In this document: positions 1-10,067 of the stretch, piece by piece
Layout of the letters: each line of letters begins with the position of its first letter
Position numbering within the stretch: position 1 is the first letter of the stretch
Source: Brevundimonas sp.
GTDB taxonomy: Bacteria; Pseudomonadota; Alphaproteobacteria; Caulobacterales; Caulobacteraceae
Assembly (NCBI RefSeq): GCF_016742135.1
Contig: NZ_JACVCG010000001.1
Coordinates: forward strand, 248,001 to 312,000
Reading direction: 5' to 3'
Length of the DNA: 64,000 nucleotides
Translations under genes and position numbers: made by a program
Notes under the pieces: generated by a model
Told to the model about the DNA's origin: nothing
Database searches by the model: none
Seen by the model: the letters and a program-made list of their open reading frames with translations, nothing else

Positions 1-975
1 GTGATCGTCCAGCATATCCGCATCCGCCCCGGCTCGGCCGATCAGGGCTGGATGAGCGGCTGGGACGAGGACGGCATCGCCACCGTCGGCGCCTGGAATG
101 TCATCATCGACCACTGCAGCCTGACCTGGGCGACCGACGAGAACCTGTCCGCCTCCGGGCCCCGCTTCACCGGCTCGACGCCCGAGGAATGGCGGCGCGG
201 CACCAGCCACAACATCACCTTTTCGAACAACATCATCGGCGAGAGCCTGGCCTACTCCAGCCACTCCAAGGGCGAGCACTCCAAGGGATCGCTGATCCAC
301 GACAACGTCACCGGCCTGCTGATCATCGGCAATCTCTATGCCCACAACTATGAGCGCAGCCCCCTGTTCAAGGGCGGGGTGCACGGCGTCATCGTCAACA
401 ACCTGATCTACAACCCCGGGCCGCGCGCCATCCACTACAACCTGGCCCCCGAGGAGTGGGGGGATGTGCCGTTCGAGGTCGGCAAGATGACGGCCATCGG
501 CAATGTGCTGCGCGCCGGCCCGTCGACCCCGACCGAGCGCCTGGCCTTCCTTATGATCGGGGGCGCCGGCGACCTTGAATATTATGGCCGCGACAACATC
601 GCCGTCGATCAGGTCGGTGAGCCGATCCGCATGTTCGGACGCTATACCACCAGCCCGGCCCGCATCATCGAGGTGTCCCGCCCGCCCGTCTGGTGGGAAG
701 GCCTGACCCCCATGCCCGCCGTCGATGTGCAGCGCTCGGTGCTGTCCACCGTCGGTGCCCGTCCGTGGGACCGCGACATGCGCGACGTCCTGCTGATCGC
801 CGAGGTGGCCGAGGGCCGGGGCGAGATCATCGACCATGAGCGTCAGGTCGGCGGCTATCCCGCCGTGGGCGAGCCGACCCGCAAGGCCTTCAATCCCGAC
901 GACTGGAACCTGCACGACATGACGCCGAAGCGCGACGATGTTCTGGATCGGCCCGCCAACCGCCGGGGGACCTGA
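1..975 (+). CDS. Pectate lyase-like protein, 3' part (5' end outside window)
   Basis: This is the C-terminal 324 residues of a right-handed beta-helix polysaccharide lyase of the pectate lyase family 1 type. It is probably exported and cleaves polygalacturonate by beta-elimination. The first codon here is probably internal: the segment VIVQHIRIRPG aligns by eye with the interior VIVRHIRSRLG of the complete lyase at 5525-6940. Both proteins then share an IIDH/ILDH strand, a W-x-x-DE segment, and an ESL..S.HSKG / ESL..SAHAKG segment, so they are homologues. The gene lies upstream of a LacI-family regulator on the same strand and opens a pectin-use locus. The family is fairly clear, but the exact substrate is inferred from context. 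Confidence 0.8.
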   Translation: MIVQHIRIRPGSADQGWMSGWDEDGIATVGAWNVIIDHCSLTWATDENLSASGPRFTGSTPEEWRRGTSHNITFSNNIIGESLAYSSHSKGEHSKGSLIHDNVTGLLIIGNLYAHNYERSPLFKGGVHGVIVNNLIYNPGPRAIHYNLAPEEWGDVPFEVGKMTAIGNVLRAGPSTPTERLAFLMIGGAGDLEYYGRDNIAVDQVGEPIRMFGRYTTSPARIIEVSRPPVWWEGLTPMPAVDVQRSVLSTVGARPWDRDMRDVLLIAEVAEGRGEIIDHERQVGGYPAVGEPTRKAFNPDDWNLHDMTPKRDDVLDRPANRRGT

Positions 976-1050: not shown

Positions 1051-2094
1051 GTGACGGATAACAGGCGGACAGGCGGCAAGCCCGTAACCATCAACGATGT
1101 CGCGCGTCTGGCCGGGGTGTCGAAGAAGACGGTCTCGCGCGTCATCAACAACTCGCCCCTGCTCCGGGCCGAGACGCGCGAAAAGGTGCAAAAGGTCATC
1201 GCCGAATCCGGCTTTGCCCCCGATCCCCAGGCGCGCGGGCTGGCCTTCCGCCGGTCGTTCCTGGTCGGCATGATCTACGACAACCCCAGCCCCAACTATG
1301 TGGTCAACATGCAGCAGGGGGTGCTGGACGCCGTGCGCGGCTCAGGGCTCGAGCTGGTGGTCCACCCCTGCAACCGCGCCAGTGACACCTTCCTGTCCGA
1401 TGTGCGCGGCTTCATCGTCCGGCAAAAGCTGTTCGGCGTGGTCATGCCGCCTTCGGTGTCCGAGGACGAACGGGTCGTCGCCATCCTGAAAGAGGCCGAA
1501 TGTCCCTATGTCCGGATCGCCTCGGTGTCCCTGGACGAGCCCCGGCACATGGTGGTGACCAACGACAGCTCGGGCGCGGCGGAAGCGGCCCGCCATCTGG
1601 CGGCCCTGGGTCACCGGCGCATCGCCTTCATCTCGGGCCCCGACAGCTTCCGCTCCTCGCACGAGCGGCGCCGGGGCTTTGCCGAGGGGCTGGCCGAGCA
1701 CGGCCTGACGCTGGATCCCGCCTACACGCGCGTCGGCGCCTATACGTTCGAGTCGGGTGTGGAGGCCGCCCGCGACCTGCTGGCCATGGCCGACCGGCCG
1801 ACGGCCATCTTCGCCGGCAATGATGAAATGGCCATCGGCGTCATGAAGGCCGCGCGTGACGCCGGCCTCGACGTGCCGTTTGATCTGTCGATCTGCGGGT
1901 TTGACGACCTGCCCATGGCCTCGCGCGTCTGGCCGAACCTGACCACCGTCCGCCTGCCGATCCGCGACATGGGCCGCATGGCCGCCGAAAAGCTGACCGC
2001 CTCGATCCGCGGCCTCGACGCCGCCACCCTCACCCAGCCCGAAGTCCGACCGTCGCTGGTCGTGCGAGACTCGACGGCACCGCTTCAGGGGTGA
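1051..2094 (+). CDS. LacI-family transcriptional regulator (probable regulator of the pectin locus)
   Basis: A 347-residue LacI/GalR regulator. Residues 12-35 form the typical helix-turn-helix (TINDVARLAGVSKKTVSRV) followed by the hinge helix near residues 56-68. The rest is a periplasmic-binding-protein-like effector domain ending in the expected IRDMGRMAAEKL region. The start is GTG. The gene sits between two pectate lyases and the isomerase/dehydrogenase pair. The CCGG-centred palindromes at 4695-4714, 6970-6983 and 7005-7018 have the symmetry expected of LacI operators, so this protein is the likely repressor of the locus. The inducer is probably a pectin breakdown intermediate, by analogy with other uronate regulators; this is inference. 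Confidence 0.9.
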   Translation: MTDNRRTGGKPVTINDVARLAGVSKKTVSRVINNSPLLRAETREKVQKVIAESGFAPDPQARGLAFRRSFLVGMIYDNPSPNYVVNMQQGVLDAVRGSGLELVVHPCNRASDTFLSDVRGFIVRQKLFGVVMPPSVSEDERVVAILKEAECPYVRIASVSLDEPRHMVVTNDSSGAAEAARHLAALGHRRIAFISGPDSFRSSHERRRGFAEGLAEHGLTLDPAYTRVGAYTFESGVEAARDLLAMADRPTAIFAGNDEMAIGVMKAARDAGLDVPFDLSICGFDDLPMASRVWPNLTTVRLPIRDMGRMAAEKLTASIRGLDAATLTQPEVRPSLVVRDSTAPLQG

Positions 2095-3935: not shown

Positions 3936-4577
3936 CTAACCCTCAACCACCCCCCTGATGTAGTCCTTGATCGCCTCGTCCGTGGCATTGGCGAAGAACA
4001 GGTCCTGGAACCGCTCACCGGCGACGGCGGCTTTCAGCAGGTCCTGATCTACAGTCTTCAGGACCGTCAGCATGTCGTGGCAGGTGACGGCCTTCAGGTC
4101 CTTCAGGATGCCACGGTTCCTGCGCATGATCTCGGCCCGCTCCTTGGGATAGCCCAGACCGCGTTCGCCCTCGAACAGCTTGCGATAGCAGTCCTGCAGG
4201 TTCAGCTCGGCCGCCCAGCCAAAGCCCTTGGCATAGGGCATGGCGATGGCGTTGCCGTCATTGATCTGGCCGAACAGGAAGGCGTCGGTGGGGTCGATGA
4301 TCAGGCCACAGAACACGCCCGGCATGGCATTGGCGGCCAGCATGGAGCCCGTGCCCGTGCCACACCCCGTGACCACGAAATCCGCCGCGCCGGAGTTCAG
4401 CAGCAGGCCGGTCAGCAGCCCGTTCATCACATAGGTCAGCGAGGCCTTATCCTCGGGCGTATACATGCCATAGTGGAACACCTCATGGCCCAACGGTTCA
4501 GCCACGGCGGTCAGGGCCGAGTGCACGATCTCGCTCTTGGCGGCCTGGCTGTTCTCGATGATCAGGGCGATTTTCAT
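3936..4577 (-). CDS. RpiB/LacA/LacB-family isomerase, probable 4-deoxy-5-keto-uronate isomerase (DhuI-like)
   Basis: A 213-residue member of the RpiB/LacA/LacB sugar isomerase family. The family's active-site Cys is visible at residue 72 in GCGTGTG (71-77), followed by SMLAANA. It is longer than ordinary RpiB (about 150 residues) because of a C-terminal extension. It is divergent from a KduD-type dehydrogenase. In streptococcal glycosaminoglycan metabolism an RpiB-family enzyme (DhuI) isomerises 4-deoxy-L-threo-5-hexosulose uronate and works with an SDR (DhuD). The same pairing here suggests that this protein replaces KduI, of which I see no gene in the window. Family assignment is firm; the substrate is inferred. 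A GAGGAA ribosome-binding site precedes the ATG. Confidence 0.85.
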   Translation of the reverse strand: MKIALIIENSQAAKSEIVHSALTAVAEPLGHEVFHYGMYTPEDKASLTYVMNGLLTGLLLNSGAADFVVTGCGTGTGSMLAANAMPGVFCGLIIDPTDAFLFGQINDGNAIAMPYAKGFGWAAELNLQDCYRKLFEGERGLGYPKERAEIMRRNRGILKDLKAVTCHDMLTVLKTVDQDLLKAAVAGERFQDLFFANATDEAIKDYIRGVVEG

Positions 4578-4694
4578 GGTATTCCTCAGGGTCGCGAGCG
4601 GGCAGGGCGAAAGGGGTATCCCGATGTCCGGATGTCATATTCGGGAAGGACGACGAAAGGGCAGCATCGCCCCTTCCTCGTTTGCATGGAACTA

Positions 4695-4714
4695 TGACAC
4701 CGGTTACCGGTATG
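4695..4714. promoter_or_regulatory. Putative operator in the isomerase/kduD divergent promoter region
   Basis: The sequence TGACACCGGTTACCGGTATG has two ACCGGT cores seven bases apart. Its first ten bases equal the left ten of the perfect palindrome at 7005-7018. It lies in the 192-base gap between the divergent isomerase and dehydrogenase genes, so one site could control both. It is probably bound by the LacI-family protein encoded at 1051-2094 (inference). Confidence 0.6.
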
Positions 4715-4769
4715 TTCAATCTGAAGCCTTCAATCCGCCCCCTCATAACTCATTCCAAGGCCACCCCGC

Positions 4770-5528
4770 ATGACCCCGTCATTTGATCTTTCCGGTCGCA
4801 CCGCCCTTGTCACCGGGGCCAATACGGGCCTCGGCCAGGCCATCGCCGTGGGGCTGGCCGGGGCGGGGGCCGACATCGTCGCCGTGGGGCGCTCGGCGCC
4901 CACCGAGACAGCGGAAAAGGTCGCGGCCCTGGGCCGGGCCCTGCATGCCATCCCGGCGGACCTGTCGACCACGGCACCGCTCGCCGATGTGGTCGCCAGG
5001 GCCCGCGATGCGGTCGGTGACATCGACATTCTGGTCAACAATGCCGGCATCATCCGCCGCGCCGACAGCCTCGACTTCTCCGAGGATGACTGGGACGCCG
5101 TCATCGACACCAACCTCAAGACCGCCTTCTTCCTCAGCCAGGCCGTGGCCCGCACCTGGGTCGGGGCCGGCCGCGGCGGCAAGATCCTGAATATCTGTTC
5201 GATGCTGAGCTTTCAGGGGGGCATCCGCGTGCCCTCCTATACGGCCTCCAAGAGCGGACTTGCGGGCCTGACGCGGCTGCTGGCCTGCGAATGGGCGGCA
5301 AAGGGCATCAACGTCAACGGAATCGCGCCCGGCTATTTCGCCACCAACAACACCGAGGCCCTGCGCGCCGACGAACAGCGCAACCGCGACATCCTGGGCC
5401 GTATTCCCGCCGGTCGCTGGGGCGACCCGTCGGACCTCGCCGGGGCCGCCGTGTTTCTGGCCTCGGATGCCTCGGCCTATGTGCACGGCACCATCCTGAC
5501 CGTCGACGGCGGCTGGATGGCGCGCTAG
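4770..5528 (+). CDS. kduD: 2-dehydro-3-deoxy-D-gluconate 5-dehydrogenase (KduD-type SDR)
   Basis: A 252-residue classical short-chain dehydrogenase. It has the nucleotide-binding TGANTGLG (residues 15-22), NNAG (90-93) and the catalytic set Asn115, Ser144, Tyr157 and Lys161 (YTASK). The N-terminus (SFDLSGRTALVTGANTGLGQ) and C-terminus (HGTILTVDGGWMAR) match the KduD group. It would reduce 3-deoxy-D-glycero-2,5-hexodiulosonate to 2-keto-3-deoxygluconate in the cytoplasm, after the isomerase encoded divergently upstream. Its stop codon is interlocked with the stop of the convergent pectate lyase gene through a shared CTAG. Confidence 0.88.
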   Translation: MTPSFDLSGRTALVTGANTGLGQAIAVGLAGAGADIVAVGRSAPTETAEKVAALGRALHAIPADLSTTAPLADVVARARDAVGDIDILVNNAGIIRRADSLDFSEDDWDAVIDTNLKTAFFLSQAVARTWVGAGRGGKILNICSMLSFQGGIRVPSYTASKSGLAGLTRLLACEWAAKGINVNGIAPGYFATNNTEALRADEQRNRDILGRIPAGRWGDPSDLAGAAVFLASDASAYVHGTILTVDGGWMAR

Positions 5529-6940
5529 CAGCCGCTACTCCCCGCCGCCAGGGCGTTCAGCCAGTCTTCCAGAAGGGTGTATCCGTCTCCGTCCGGGTCG
5601 GTCGCCCCGTCGGCGGGGTTGGAGGGGTCCGAGCCATGCGCGACCTCCCAGTCGTCGGGCAGGCCGTCGCCGTCGCGATCGACCCAGGGCACGCCGGCCT
5701 CGATCTCACCCAGCCCGCCGACCTCTTCGGGGCTGTCGATGATCCGGCCCGTCCGGTCGCGGACGCCTGCGACGATCCGGGCATCCACTGCGTCGCGGGG
5801 CAGGGAGGCCCCCGCCGTCGCCAGGACCTGTTCCTGCCACAGCTGCGGATCCTCCGGCGGGGCACCGGCCCAGTCGGGCCGCGCCGTCAGTCGCGTGCCG
5901 GGGCCGCCGTCGTCCTTCACCAGGCTCCACGGATCAGGGGGCAGGGCGCCGTCCATGCGGTTGGCCTCGAACCACGCCGCGGCCAGCGGGTCGGAGTCCT
6001 CGAACGCCCAGTGCCCGGTCGTATCGGGCCCGGGCAAATAGGCATTGCCGATGAAGGCATAGGTCGAGACGCTGCGGGTATCGGCATTATACCCCGCCTG
6101 CTCCCCGCCCCAGTTGTAGAAGACATTGCCCCGGAACTCGAAATAGGGGCCCTCGGGATCGACCTCCGGCGGATTGTAGTTGCCCGGTCTGGGCATGCGG
6201 GCCCGGTGGCTGGCCCACAGATTGCCGATGAAGCTGATCCGCGCGCCGTATCCGCCCCGCACCAGCGAGCCATAGCCGTGATCCCCCTTGGCATGGGCCG
6301 AGGCGTTCAGCGATTCGGCGATCACCGAGTTCTGCACGGTCACATCATAGATGCCGCGTTCAGGCGGATCATATCGGCTGCCGACCGACAGGGTCTCATC
6401 CACCGACCAGGACGCCGAGACATGATCCAGAATGATGCGTCGACCGCGCGTGATCGAGATGGCGTCCTCCTCGACCGCCTGTTCCGTACCCAGCCGCGAG
6501 CGGATATGGCGCACGATCACATCGTCGGCCGAGACGATCAGGGGCTGACCGATCAGGGTGATTCCCCCGCCAGGCGCGGTCTGGCCCGCCACGGTCACGC
6601 GGCCCCGGCGAATGACCAGCGGGCTCTCCAGGCGGATGACGCCCCCGGTGTCGAAAACAATGGTCCGGGGGCCCTCGGACTCGACGGCGGCGCGCAGGCT
6701 GCCCGGGCCCGAATCGCCCGTATGTGTGACCCGCAGCACACGCCCGCCGCGTCCGCCGAGGGCATGGCGGCCCGCGCCCTCCGCCCCCGGAAAGGCCAGT
6801 ACCGGGGTCGGCGTCTCCTGGGCGAAGGCCGAGTCTGCCGGGCCCACCGCGCCCGCAAGCGCCAGCAGGGCGGCGAGCGCTGCCCCGCACGATGAGGCGA
6901 TAGCGGCCCATGACCTGCGCTGCGACTTGGGGCTTGCCAT
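5525..6940 (-). CDS. Secreted pectate lyase-like protein with calcium-binding-type tail
   Basis: A 471-residue exported right-handed beta-helix lyase. From ATG 6940 it begins MASPKSQRR, then a long hydrophobic signal peptide ending near SAFAQ. The mature start VLAFPGAEGAGRHALGGRGG and the later VIVRHIRSR, IILDH and S.AHAKG segments are typical of family 1 pectate lyases. The last 50 residues contain two D-x-D-G-D-G units (DRDGDGLPDDWE, DPDGDGYTLLEDW), a thrombospondin-3/dockerin-like calcium-binding pattern. Starts at 6952 or 6997 are possible, but the latter would put coding sequence through the operator at 6970-6983. The gene is divergent from the TonB-dependent receptor gene. Confidence 0.85.
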   Translation of the reverse strand: MASPKSQRRSWAAIASSCGAALAALLALAGAVGPADSAFAQETPTPVLAFPGAEGAGRHALGGRGGRVLRVTHTGDSGPGSLRAAVESEGPRTIVFDTGGVIRLESPLVIRRGRVTVAGQTAPGGGITLIGQPLIVSADDVIVRHIRSRLGTEQAVEEDAISITRGRRIILDHVSASWSVDETLSVGSRYDPPERGIYDVTVQNSVIAESLNASAHAKGDHGYGSLVRGGYGARISFIGNLWASHRARMPRPGNYNPPEVDPEGPYFEFRGNVFYNWGGEQAGYNADTRSVSTYAFIGNAYLPGPDTTGHWAFEDSDPLAAAWFEANRMDGALPPDPWSLVKDDGGPGTRLTARPDWAGAPPEDPQLWQEQVLATAGASLPRDAVDARIVAGVRDRTGRIIDSPEEVGGLGEIEAGVPWVDRDGDGLPDDWEVAHGSDPSNPADGATDPDGDGYTLLEDWLNALAAGSSGC

Positions 6941-6969
6941 TTCGACGATCATCGGGTTACGCTGGCCAT

Positions 6970-6983
6970 TGATACCGGTGTCA
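6970..6983. promoter_or_regulatory. LacI-type operator 1 between pectate lyase and receptor genes
   Basis: TGATACCGGTGTCA, a palindrome with one mismatched pair centred on CCGG. Its centre is 35 bp from the centre of the perfect site at 7005-7018. It lies in the divergent promoter region of the lyase and TonB-receptor genes. Confidence 0.7.
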
Positions 6984-7004
6984 TTCACTTTGCGCATCTA
7001 GTCA

Positions 7005-7018
7005 TGACACCGGTGTCA
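7005..7018. promoter_or_regulatory. LacI-type operator 2 (perfect palindrome) upstream of the receptor gene
   Basis: TGACACCGGTGTCA is a perfect 14-bp palindrome with the central CpG and CCGG core typical of LacI-family operators. It lies 83 bases before the receptor start codon and shares its half-sites with 6970-6983 and 4695-4714. Confidence 0.75.
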
Positions 7019-7100
7019 AAGCAAGGTTCAGGATTGAACCTCAATAAAAGATCGACCGGGGCTAACCTCCGGCGTCCTGTATGTCCTTGGGAGGAGGCAT

Positions 7101-10067
7101 ATGTCACACGTTCAAAAATCGGGCGCGTCCCTGCGCCGTTATCTGTTCGCCGGTGGATCGGGGATGGCGCTCGCGCTGTGCCTGGGTGTCGGAGGTGTCG
7201 CCGCCCAGAACGCGGGTGAGCCCACGACCGAGGTCGATGAGATCATCGTCACCGGCTATCGCGGCAGCCTCGCCGCCGCCCTGGACATCAAGCGCAACGA
7301 GGCCGGAATCGTCGATGTCATCCTGGCCGAGGACATCGCCGACTTCCCGGACACCAATCTGGCCGAGGCCATCCAGCGTATTCCGGGCGTCTCGATCGAC
7401 CGCGATGCCGGCGAGGGCCGCCAGCTGACCGTTCGCGGCCTAAGCTCGGACTTCACCCGCACCCGCATCAACGGCATGGAGGCCCAGGCCACCACGGGCG
7501 GCACCGACTCCTCGGGCGGGGCGAACCGCGGGCGCGGCTTCGACTTCAACGTCTTCGCCTCCGAACTCTTCAACTCGATCAAGGTCCGCAAGACCGCGGC
7601 CGCCGAGACCGAGGAAGGCTCCCTGGGCGCCACCATCGATCTGCAGTCGGCCCGCCCGTTCGACTTCCGGGGCCCGCGCATGGCCTTCTCGGTCCAGGCC
7701 GGCTACAACGACCTGTCCGAAAACTGGAACCCGCGCGCGGCCTTCCTGGTCAGCAATACCTTCGGTGACCGCGACCAGTTCGGGGCCCTCTTGTCGGTGG
7801 CCTACAGCGAAAAGGACTCCTTCGAGGAAGGCTTCAGCTCGGTGCGCTGGGCCCCCGCCGTCGGCACCAACAGCTCGGGCGGTTTCTGTTCCCCGCTCGG
7901 CTTCACCCCGCAGAACCCGGGCAACAGCGGCGCCAATGGTTCAAACGCGGCCAACTGCGCCACCGGCCTGCCGCGTCCGGCCAATACACCGGCCAATGTC
8001 ACCGCCTATCAGACCGCCAACCAGGCCAATGTCTTCATTCCCCGCCTGCCCCGCTACGGTCGCCTGACCCACCATCAGGAGCGTCTGGGCCTGACCGGCG
8101 CGCTGCAGTGGCGTCCGGCGGACTCCACGACCATCAGCCTGGACGTGCTGTACTCCCAGCTCGACTCGACCCGGAAGGAAGACTTCCTCCAGGCCATGTC
8201 CTTCAGCCGCAATGCCGCGGCCGGTGGCCAGACCCAGGTGATCGTCCGCGACGCGGTCGTCGAGAACAACACCCTGGTCTATGGTCTGTTCGACAACGTC
8301 GATGTCCGCTCCGAGTCCCGCTACGACCAGCTGGAGACCCAATTCCTGCAGGTCGGGCTCACCGTCGAGCATGACTTCTCGGACAATGTCCGGGGTCGGT
8401 TCTTCGCGGGCCGGGCCGAGTCCAACTACGAAAACCCCTATCAGACGACCGTTACCCTCGATCGTCAGAATACCGCCGGCTATTCGTTTGATTTCCGGGG
8501 CAATCCCAATACGCCGCTGATCAACTACGGATTTGACGTGGCGAATCCGGCGGCCTGGGGCTGGCTGCCGATCGGCTCCAGCGTTCCGCGCTCCGAAATC
8601 CGCATCCGGCCCCAGGGCGTGGACACCATCTTCGAGTCCCTGCAGGCGGATCTGGAGTTCGACGTCACCCCGTTCGTGACCCTGCGCACCGGCGTCAACT
8701 GGAAGACCTTCTCGTCGGAATCCTACGAGTTCCGCCGCACGGACGAGACGGTCGTTCCGGCCCTGCCGGGCGGCGTCACCATGGCGGACATCACCATCCT
8801 GCTGACCGGCTTCGGCAATGGTTTCGCTCCGAACGGCTCGCCGACCAGCTGGGTCATCCCTGACCTGAATGCCCTGGCCGACCTGTTCAACATCTACTGC
8901 AACTGCAATACCGGCCTGCCCGGCGGGGACTTTACCCTCGGCAGCATCACGGTCGGCAACGCCCGGGGCGGCAACCGCTTCCTCGAGGAAGAAGACTTCG
9001 CCATCTACGCCCAGGCGGACTTCAATGCCGATGTCTTCGGGCGTCCGTTCCGCGGCAATGTCGGCCTCCGCCACGTGTGGACCAGCCTCTATGCCGAGGG
9101 CTACAGCTCTACGGGCGGCGGCACCCTGGTGTTCGACACCCATGAGTATCAGGACAGCCTGCCGTCGCTGAACCTGACCTATGAGCCGATCGACGATGTC
9201 CTGGTGCGCTTCGGTGCCGCCAAGGTCATGGCCCGGCCCCAGATCAACAACTCCATGTCCGGGGCCAACTATCTGGTGCCGACCACGTCGCTGAACGCCA
9301 CGGGTCCGAACTATACCGCCACCATCGGCAATGTGGAGCTGGAGCCCTTCCGCGCCACCTCCTACGACTTCGCCGTCGAGTGGTACTTCGCGCCGGAAAG
9401 CCTGATCTCCTTCGCCTACTTCTACAAGGACATCGACACCTACATCCAGGTGATCCGTCAGGACCTGCCGTATTCGGCCCTGACCGCCCTCAACCCGTCG
9501 GCGTTCGACCCCAGCTTCTGCTTCGGCACCTGCTCGTCCAGCACCATCTTCCAGCTGACCAGCGCGGTGAATACGGATGGCGGACCGCTCAAGGGGTATG
9601 AGATCAGCTTCCAGACGCCGTTCAGCTTCCTGCCGGGGCCGTTCTCGAACCTCGGGATCCAGCTGAACTACACGAAGGTCGAGTCCGAGATCGATTACTG
9701 CACCAATGCCCTGTGCACGACCTTCGTGACCGACGACCTCGCGCAGCTGTCGCCCACGGCCTACAACGGCACCCTCTACTATGAGGACAGCCGCTTCTCG
9801 GCCCGGGTCTCGGCCTCCTACCGGGATGCCTATCTGCAGAACGTCCCGGGCCGCAACGGCAACGCCCTGGAAGGCAAGCAGGACACGCTGAACATCGACT
9901 TCTCGTCGTCGTTCAGGCTGAATGACAATGTCCGGCTGACCTTCGAAGGTATCAACTTGACCGACGAGGAAAACCACCAGTGGGTCGGCGACGAGGACCG
10001 CCAGTCGACCTCCGTCTATCATCACACGGGACGGCAGTTCTTCATCGGGGCCCGCTACACCTTCTGA
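7101..10067 (+). CDS. TonB-dependent receptor, probably for pectin oligosaccharides
   Basis: A 988-residue outer-membrane receptor. It has a signal peptide (about residues 1-36, cut near VAAQ), a TonB-box-like EIIVTG at 47-52, and a plug domain containing FPDTNLAEAIQRIPGVSIDR and the LTVRGL segment. A long beta-barrel ends in the required C-terminal Phe (GARYTF). Length and plug style fit the Caulobacter/Xanthomonas carbohydrate receptors. The start ATG 7101 follows GGGAGGAGGC. With twin operators upstream and a secreted lyase divergent to it, it is likely to import oligogalacturonides. The substrate is inferred from context only. Confidence 0.9.
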   Translation: MSHVQKSGASLRRYLFAGGSGMALALCLGVGGVAAQNAGEPTTEVDEIIVTGYRGSLAAALDIKRNEAGIVDVILAEDIADFPDTNLAEAIQRIPGVSIDRDAGEGRQLTVRGLSSDFTRTRINGMEAQATTGGTDSSGGANRGRGFDFNVFASELFNSIKVRKTAAAETEEGSLGATIDLQSARPFDFRGPRMAFSVQAGYNDLSENWNPRAAFLVSNTFGDRDQFGALLSVAYSEKDSFEEGFSSVRWAPAVGTNSSGGFCSPLGFTPQNPGNSGANGSNAANCATGLPRPANTPANVTAYQTANQANVFIPRLPRYGRLTHHQERLGLTGALQWRPADSTTISLDVLYSQLDSTRKEDFLQAMSFSRNAAAGGQTQVIVRDAVVENNTLVYGLFDNVDVRSESRYDQLETQFLQVGLTVEHDFSDNVRGRFFAGRAESNYENPYQTTVTLDRQNTAGYSFDFRGNPNTPLINYGFDVANPAAWGWLPIGSSVPRSEIRIRPQGVDTIFESLQADLEFDVTPFVTLRTGVNWKTFSSESYEFRRTDETVVPALPGGVTMADITILLTGFGNGFAPNGSPTSWVIPDLNALADLFNIYCNCNTGLPGGDFTLGSITVGNARGGNRFLEEEDFAIYAQADFNADVFGRPFRGNVGLRHVWTSLYAEGYSSTGGGTLVFDTHEYQDSLPSLNLTYEPIDDVLVRFGAAKVMARPQINNSMSGANYLVPTTSLNATGPNYTATIGNVELEPFRATSYDFAVEWYFAPESLISFAYFYKDIDTYIQVIRQDLPYSALTALNPSAFDPSFCFGTCSSSTIFQLTSAVNTDGGPLKGYEISFQTPFSFLPGPFSNLGIQLNYTKVESEIDYCTNALCTTFVTDDLAQLSPTAYNGTLYYEDSRFSARVSASYRDAYLQNVPGRNGNALEGKQDTLNIDFSSSFRLNDNVRLTFEGINLTDEENHQWVGDEDRQSTSVYHHTGRQFFIGARYTF

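Follow-up and report, generated by a model that had tools for sequence, protein, structure and literature searches.

In Dickeya and Pectobacterium, lyases, uptake, isomerase and KduD are co-ordinated by a single repressor, KdgR, which belongs to the IclR family. Six LacI-family groups of regulators for glucuronate and galacturonate, as well as GluR of Caulobacter, are described in passages of PMC4052901 (Ravcheev 2014), other uronate regulators are described in passages of PMC5507952, and KduI/DhuI clusters are covered in passages of PMC12838403. The present analysis concerns a pectin locus of Brevundimonas sp. in a stretch of 64,000 nucleotides (the window, positions 248001 to 312000 of contig C3 in the 2.6 Mb genome G000, which has 8 contigs), where a set of 14-bp sites very probably serves as operators of a LacI-family protein encoded at 1051–2094, which would act as a dimeric repressor of pectin use. 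The regulator and its probable operators within the window are the following:

1051..2094, plus strand: LacI/GalR-family regulator of 347 amino acids, the probable repressor of the regulon, with PF00356 and PF13377 over cut-off
4695..4708, plus strand: probable operator C, TGACACCGGTTACC, with one perfect and one degenerate half, exact in the rpiB/kduD regions of 34 of 34 relatives
6970..6983, plus strand: probable operator O1, TGATACCGGTGTCA, also present in relatives
7005..7018, plus strand: probable operator O2, TGACACCGGTGTCA, an exact palindrome, also present in relatives

The initial annotation had grouped the three sequences at 6970, 7005 and 4695 as one motif of a pectin regulon with the protein at 1051 as its likely regulator; their coordinates were confirmed from the window sequence, with 35 bp from 6970 to 7005, start to start, and the grouping is supported by genome-wide rarity and by co-occurrence with the regulator. 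The 14-mer contains a central CG, which is common to LacI-family operators. A first-order Markov model of the window composition predicts 0.0002 copies of the exact 14-mer palindrome per 64 kb and 0.0085 per 2.6 Mb, and 0.016 copies of the pattern TGAYACCGGTRTCA per 2.6 Mb; the genome contains two copies of the latter, at 6970 and 7005. The pattern TGACACCGGTTWCC has two genomic sites, at 4695 and at C3:247527. The suggested genome-wide search therefore returned four sites for the two patterns together, all within a single pectin locus, where they occupy three divergent promoter regions, and not scattered at random frequency. Two of these regions had been recognised before and both stand; the third lies 474 bp left of the window, where a minus-strand hydratase/TRAP block faces the plus-strand genes pelZ and lacI, and carries GGAAACCGGTGTCA (reverse complement TGACACCGGTTTCC) at C3:247527; this region also drives pelZ-lacI. 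As in other LacI/GalR regulons, a palindromic operator with central CG stands before functionally related genes and is conserved along with the regulator. Computation shows directly that the sites exist, are rare, are conserved and go together with the regulator gene.

The association between motif and regulator was assessed in 131 Brevundimonas genomes, 77 of which have an ortholog of the 1051 regulator (E < 1e-150), six genomes with weaker homologs only being scored as without ortholog. TGACACCGGTTWCC was observed in 77 of 77 genomes with the ortholog versus 3 of 54 without it (Fisher p 3e-33), and TGAYACCGGTRTCA in 60 of 77 versus 1 of 54 (p 3e-20), although these p values overstate independence because the genomes are related, and are to be taken as indications. 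The reversed control of TGACACCGGTTWCC was found at 7 places in 7 of the 131 genomes, and that of TGAYACCGGTRTCA at none. In the wider family, 299 Caulobacteraceae genomes were compared, 151 with a regulator homolog (E <= 1e-110) and 148 without; operator pairs 32–36 bp apart were present in 68 of the former versus 2 of the latter, and pairs 14–44 bp apart in 80 versus 2, with pairs occurring in 8 of 22 genera. All 30 fetched pair loci (from 30 of 70 pair genomes) are followed within 900 bp by a receptor homolog (tblastn E <= 1e-4), and 18 of them also adjoin a pectate lyase homolog.

Conservation of the individual sites was followed in the best 80 of 236 relatives' loci found with the regulator. 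Adjacent divergent dhuI and kduD genes occur in 34 loci, each with TGACACCGGTTACC in exact form between them, while the second ACCGGT (4706–4711), which had been counted as part of a 20-mer element at 4695, is at its place in none of these 34 regions, one locus (L049) having an unrelated ACCGGT farther along; the operator at 4695 is the 14-mer, and the longer element is not the unit. When up to 3 mismatches are allowed, the window is not enriched for the motif (5 observed versus 2.98 +/- 1.46 expected, 16 of 100 shuffles reaching 5). The site at 4695 differs from the palindrome at 3 positions and is therefore not significant by mismatch count; this candidate operator is secured by its conservation instead. 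Upstream of the receptor, 46 of 50 regions have two sites and 4 have one, where an ACCGGT core was required and up to 2 mismatches were allowed, so that the constancy of the core is by construction. The spacings were 34 bp (30 regions), 33 (10), 32 (2), 22 (2), 35 (1) and 80 (1). Outside the required core, TG at positions 1–2 and C at position 13 were observed in both sites of all 41 aligned receptor pairs, whose sites had been picked at up to 2 mismatches. In 71 of 80 relatives a site occurs in the 450 bp upstream of pelZ/lacI, 54 of these being copies of GGAAACCGGTGTCA and 17 variants; a first sorting had given 54 exact, 7 near, 11 with ACCGGT only and 8 without, and the 26 misses were regrouped by eye into 17 and 9. 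The common variant here, GGTAACCGGTGTCA, is the dhuI/kduD operator on the opposite strand.

Several observations weigh against this assignment. The exact TGAYACCGGTRTCA form is absent from 17 of the 77 regulator-bearing Brevundimonas genomes, and conversely pairs (G348 and G349 in the Caulobacteraceae) or sites (G009, G059 and G092) exist without a detected ortholog; G059, a 93% complete draft, is the single TGAYACCGGTRTCA exception and has an apparent receptor-type pair. Nine of the 80 relatives lack a site in the 450 bp before pelZ/lacI (L038, L040, L041, L043, L079, L083, L087, L092 and L096), of which L079 has one farther upstream. The longest pelZ ORF (open reading frame), starting from L011:7431, spans the site at L011:7527, so that the site is intergenic only if translation begins at a later codon. 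A shorter form, the 10-mer TGACACCGGT, also occurs outside the locus, with 12 distinct places in the genome, 4 here and 8 elsewhere (control 3), some of the 8 in apparently non-coding sequence. A second LacI protein, present in 89 of the 131 Brevundimonas genomes, is weakly associated with the motif (63 of 89 versus 17 of 42 genomes, p 0.001). A consensus promoter scan gave no sigma-70-type match in 4570–7110, so that the overlap of operators with promoters rests on conserved columns, and the choice of repression over activation is an assumption drawn from where the sites lie.

With up to 2 mismatches allowed, the motif has 10 places in the genome versus 4 for the reversed control, of which 3 belong to this locus, 1 lies upstream of an isocitrate dehydrogenase-like gene and 6 lie within predicted coding sequence, the coding status being judged from ORFs and GC content at third codon positions. 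The place before the isocitrate dehydrogenase-like gene, TGATACCGGTGTGA at C8:40814 (L013:4815), is two mismatches from the palindrome and, by eye, about 130 bp upstream of the gene; it was left out of the count of candidate regulon members, as was TGACACCGGT at C5:58018, upstream of a carboxypeptidase-regulatory-like-domain gene. GGACACCGGTGTCA, with one mismatch at C1:51817, was set aside as it sits within coding sequence.

The regulator itself has the architecture of the LacI/GalR family, a LacI helix-turn-helix (HTH) followed by a periplasmic-binding-like sensor domain with sugar-binding core (PF00356, 65.9 bits against a cut-off of 27; PF13377, 144.1 bits against 26.5), and Pfam gives no IclR-type HTH of the KdgR kind, only the LacI and periplasmic-binding domains. 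Its best solved structural relatives are CcpA proteins, and HTH residues 23–33 (VSKKTVSRVIN) are invariant across the aligned homologs. The closest named records, at 97–98% identity, are from Brevundimonas halotolerans, B. poindexterae, Brevundimonas sp. A19_0 and one metagenome-assembled genome.

Around the operators, two probable core promoters were recognised:

4682..4710, plus strand: probable kduD core promoter TTGCAT-N17-TACCGG with the operator within the spacer, read from conserved columns
6933..6961, plus strand: probable receptor promoter CTTGCC-N17-GTTACG, read from columns conserved upstream of O1 in 41 aligned regions

The columns conserved between dhuI and kduD read tTTgCat..g..TATGACACCGGTTACC in up to 35 aligned regions. 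The receptor CTTGCC-N17-GTTACG is closely followed by O1, and O2, on the minus strand, overlaps TTGACA, a possible -35 of the lyase gene. Binding, repression, core-promoter overlap, the inducer and cooperativity are inferred. When pectin products are lacking, a repressor dimer would occupy three divergent promoter regions, namely (i) that between the hydratase-like gene with TRAP transporter and sugar kinase and pelZ-lacI, left of the window; (ii) that between dhuI and kduD, at 4695; and (iii) that between the pectate lyase and the TonB-dependent receptor, at 6970 and 7005. An intracellular uronate breakdown product, which may be 2-keto-3-deoxygluconate (KDG), an unsaturated uronate or galacturonate, would release the repressor and thereby open lyases, receptor, inner-membrane transporter and catabolic enzymes together. 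Since an operator stands upstream of pelZ-lacI, autoregulation is probable. The simplest reading is that the bound repressor would occlude the promoters. The receptor/lyase promoter would carry two nearly perfect operators, probably with two dimers side by side, whereas at the regulator and catabolic promoters there would be a single operator each, perfect in one half and degenerate in the other, and this difference leads to the hypothesis of graded induction.

The spacing of the receptor pair bears on how two dimers might be arranged. Among the 82 Caulobacteraceae genomes with pairs 14–44 bp apart, the spacing is 30–35 bp in 78, 24 bp in 2 and 42 bp in 2, and pairs with a gap of 31–60 bases were found in none of the 299 genomes. 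About one helical turn separates the clusters, an arrangement which two loci with 22 bp fit and L098 (80 bp) does not, and the 35 bp of the window are at the edge of the main cluster; such spacing would suit two dimers bound to roughly the same face of the DNA. Looping or cooperative binding between the lyase and receptor promoters had been proposed for the pair. A variant of the repressor model in which LacI-style looping between two sites or promoters represses might draw on the two strong sites in one region, on the others 2.3 and 7.4 kb off and on the conserved pair spacing. However, the regulator ends with LVVRDSTAPLQG, 6 residues past LVVRDS, its alignment to LacI stops at query residue 321, and no tetramerisation helix of the E. 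coli LacI type was found by sequence, the 8 homolog tails examined being also short. Loops as short as the dominant 30–35 bp are unlikely, and classical LacI looping is judged improbable because the protein ends so early and because of the 35 bp between the sites. Repression by dimers bound side by side or cooperatively is a better fit; of the two proposals, cooperative or parallel occupancy by two dimers may hold. An extension of this model is offered tentatively, and is rather doubtful at present: a two-dimer switch at the receptor throughout the Caulobacteraceae, with phased near-perfect operators bound by cooperative dimers, half-degenerate single operators elsewhere and no tetramer tail, might set the order and sharpness of induction.

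The genome has only two LacI HTH genes, and the second, at C5:167521 (L159:1368), could in principle encode the protein that binds the sites, the 1051 gene being a mere neighbour. Its weak association with the motif, given above, would agree with such a role, but it is far weaker than that of the 1051 regulator, and in 71 of 80 loci a site has been retained upstream of pelZ/lacI, next to the 1051 ortholog, so that binding by this or another regulator is very improbable. About 120 bp upstream of the second gene there is also another near-palindrome, TGTAACCGATTACA, perhaps the operator of that gene.

Another explanation has the 6970 and 7005 sequences fold together in the receptor leader RNA, each forming one arm of a hairpin, instead of serving as DNA operators. 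In the transcript the two palindromes could base-pair with each other (pairing is possible in 618 of 644 cells of 46 pairs), and RNAalifold recovers the O1–O2 stem in 26 aligned leaders; this capacity, however, follows from the palindromes themselves. In 15 receptor pairs O1 departs from the palindrome at position 3, and this position is unpaired with O2 in 13 of them, forms a Watson-Crick pair in 1 and a G-U pair in 1; the single sites at dhuI/kduD and pelZ-lacI have no second arm, and Rfam gave no family for the leader, only one sub-threshold miRNA match taken as chance. A hairpin in place of operators is hence highly improbable. Chance or a general feature, such as ACCGGT as a modification site or repeat, has next to no probability: ACCGGT occurs 16 times in the window, which shows no enrichment of the motif when up to 3 mismatches are allowed, but the full patterns are restricted to the pectin locus and track the regulator across genomes, TGAYACCGGTRTCA being present in 61 of 131 genomes, where about 2.5 copies would be expected by chance. 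As a separate observation on the receptor leader, a small CCGGGG...CCGG stem and the GGGAGGAGGCATATG start region (window 7050–7100) are kept in many of the 26 aligned leaders.

Besides the regulator, the window part of the locus contains the following genes:

1..975, plus strand: pelZ-like pectate lyase gene, 3' part (start left of the window), first gene of a probable pelZ-lacI operon, with the full ORF in L011
3936..4577, minus strand: gene for a DhuI-type 5-keto-4-deoxyuronate isomerase (RpiB/LacA family, DUF3666; PF12408, PF02502)
4770..5528, plus strand: kduD, 2-dehydro-3-deoxy-D-gluconate 5-dehydrogenase (TIGR01832, 400 bits, cut-off 338.85)
5525..6952, minus strand: secreted pectate lyase (PDB 9buj pectate lyase, E 9.1e-52)
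7101..10067, plus strand: TonB-dependent receptor of the TonB-Xanth-Caul subfamily (TIGR01782, 674.6 bits, cut-off 310)

The pelZ-like product matches NCBIfam NF041900 PelZ (E 1.3e-114, 383 bits), under the curated cut-off of 840. The secreted lyase probably starts with the ATG at 6952, near which an equivalent ATG occurs in several relatives; the longest lyase ORF, from 6997, would span the 6970 operator. Left of the window, the minus strand carries an acetyl-CoA-synthetase-like gene, a PfkB sugar kinase (matches to KDG kinases below cut-off), the TRAP genes dctM, dctQ and dctP and a 2-oxo-acid hydratase-like gene (weak match). In ten relatives' loci a further GGAAACCGGTGTCA was observed before a similar large ORF:

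Further GGAAACCGGTGTCA sites: L049:14077, L051:13995, L053:7425, L054:13829, L056:14004, L060:13850, L064:13837, L067:13801, L068:14633, L072:14702

The large ORF in L054 matches pectate lyase TIGR02474 (E 2.5e-25, 89.7 bits), under the cut-off of 189.8; lyase ORFs of this type, if members, would enlarge the regulon in those loci. The DhuI-type product is similar to PDB 3c5y (E 1.4e-117) and 4u8e, which is gbs1892 (E 3.6e-82); as an RpiB/LacA homolog of S. agalactiae gbs1892 encoded divergently from kduD, it is a predicted isomerase. All 74 relatives' loci bearing kduD have dhuI, kduI or both: dhuI without kduI in 33, full kduI without dhuI in 31, both in 9 and dhuI with a kduI fragment in 1 (L051). 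DhuI and KduI seem to replace each other beside kduD, and L049 seems, by eye, to have a KduI-like remnant before kduD; this observation concerns window 3936–4577 and relatives L049, L051, L058, L068–L074 and L076.

The analysis points to a likely regulator, operator and gene set for pectin use in a widespread bacterial group. Searching for the operator offers a ready way to uronate genes and receptors in related genomes, and its doubled form before the receptor would be a clean case of how a dimeric LacI-type repressor gains sharpness without looping. In a literature search by motif letters, TGACACCGGTGTCA, TGATACCGGTGTCA and TGACACCGGTATCA were not found among the matches listed, which held TGATACCGGTATCA in one paper on Aspergillus genomes and otherwise shorter cores only, one in a paper on CcpA. 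In subject searches no publication on this regulon was recognised among the papers listed. The regulator resembles CcpA with its cre site in sequence family, HTH and hinge and in an operator of the TGNNANCG type, but CcpA is a global regulator working with HPr, whereas the present regulator has a local regulon. The KdgR system of Dickeya and Pectobacterium differs in protein family and operator and is not known to include a TonB receptor. In passages of PMC1790865, the TonB-receptor carbohydrate utilisation loci of Xanthomonas and Caulobacter likewise bring together receptor, degrading enzymes, inner transporter and regulator, a pectin locus being named; a CCGG operator, or CCGG as a word start, was not found in those passages. 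In passages of PMC4052901, neither a Caulobacterales pectin regulon nor this motif was found, although some overlap with that survey may exist. The uronate regulators ExuR, KdgR, UxaR and UxuR treated there are also of the LacI family and also control uronate catabolic genes, Bacteroides members being named. GluR and BglR of Caulobacter, described in the same passages, share with the present regulator the LacI family, the bacterial family, a palindromic operator and a site before gluR itself, but differ in being predicted for central glucose or beta-glucoside metabolism, with a GluR palindrome of 20 bp. The regulon is best seen as a further example of a known LacI-type bacterial switch, one which RegPrecise may already hold.

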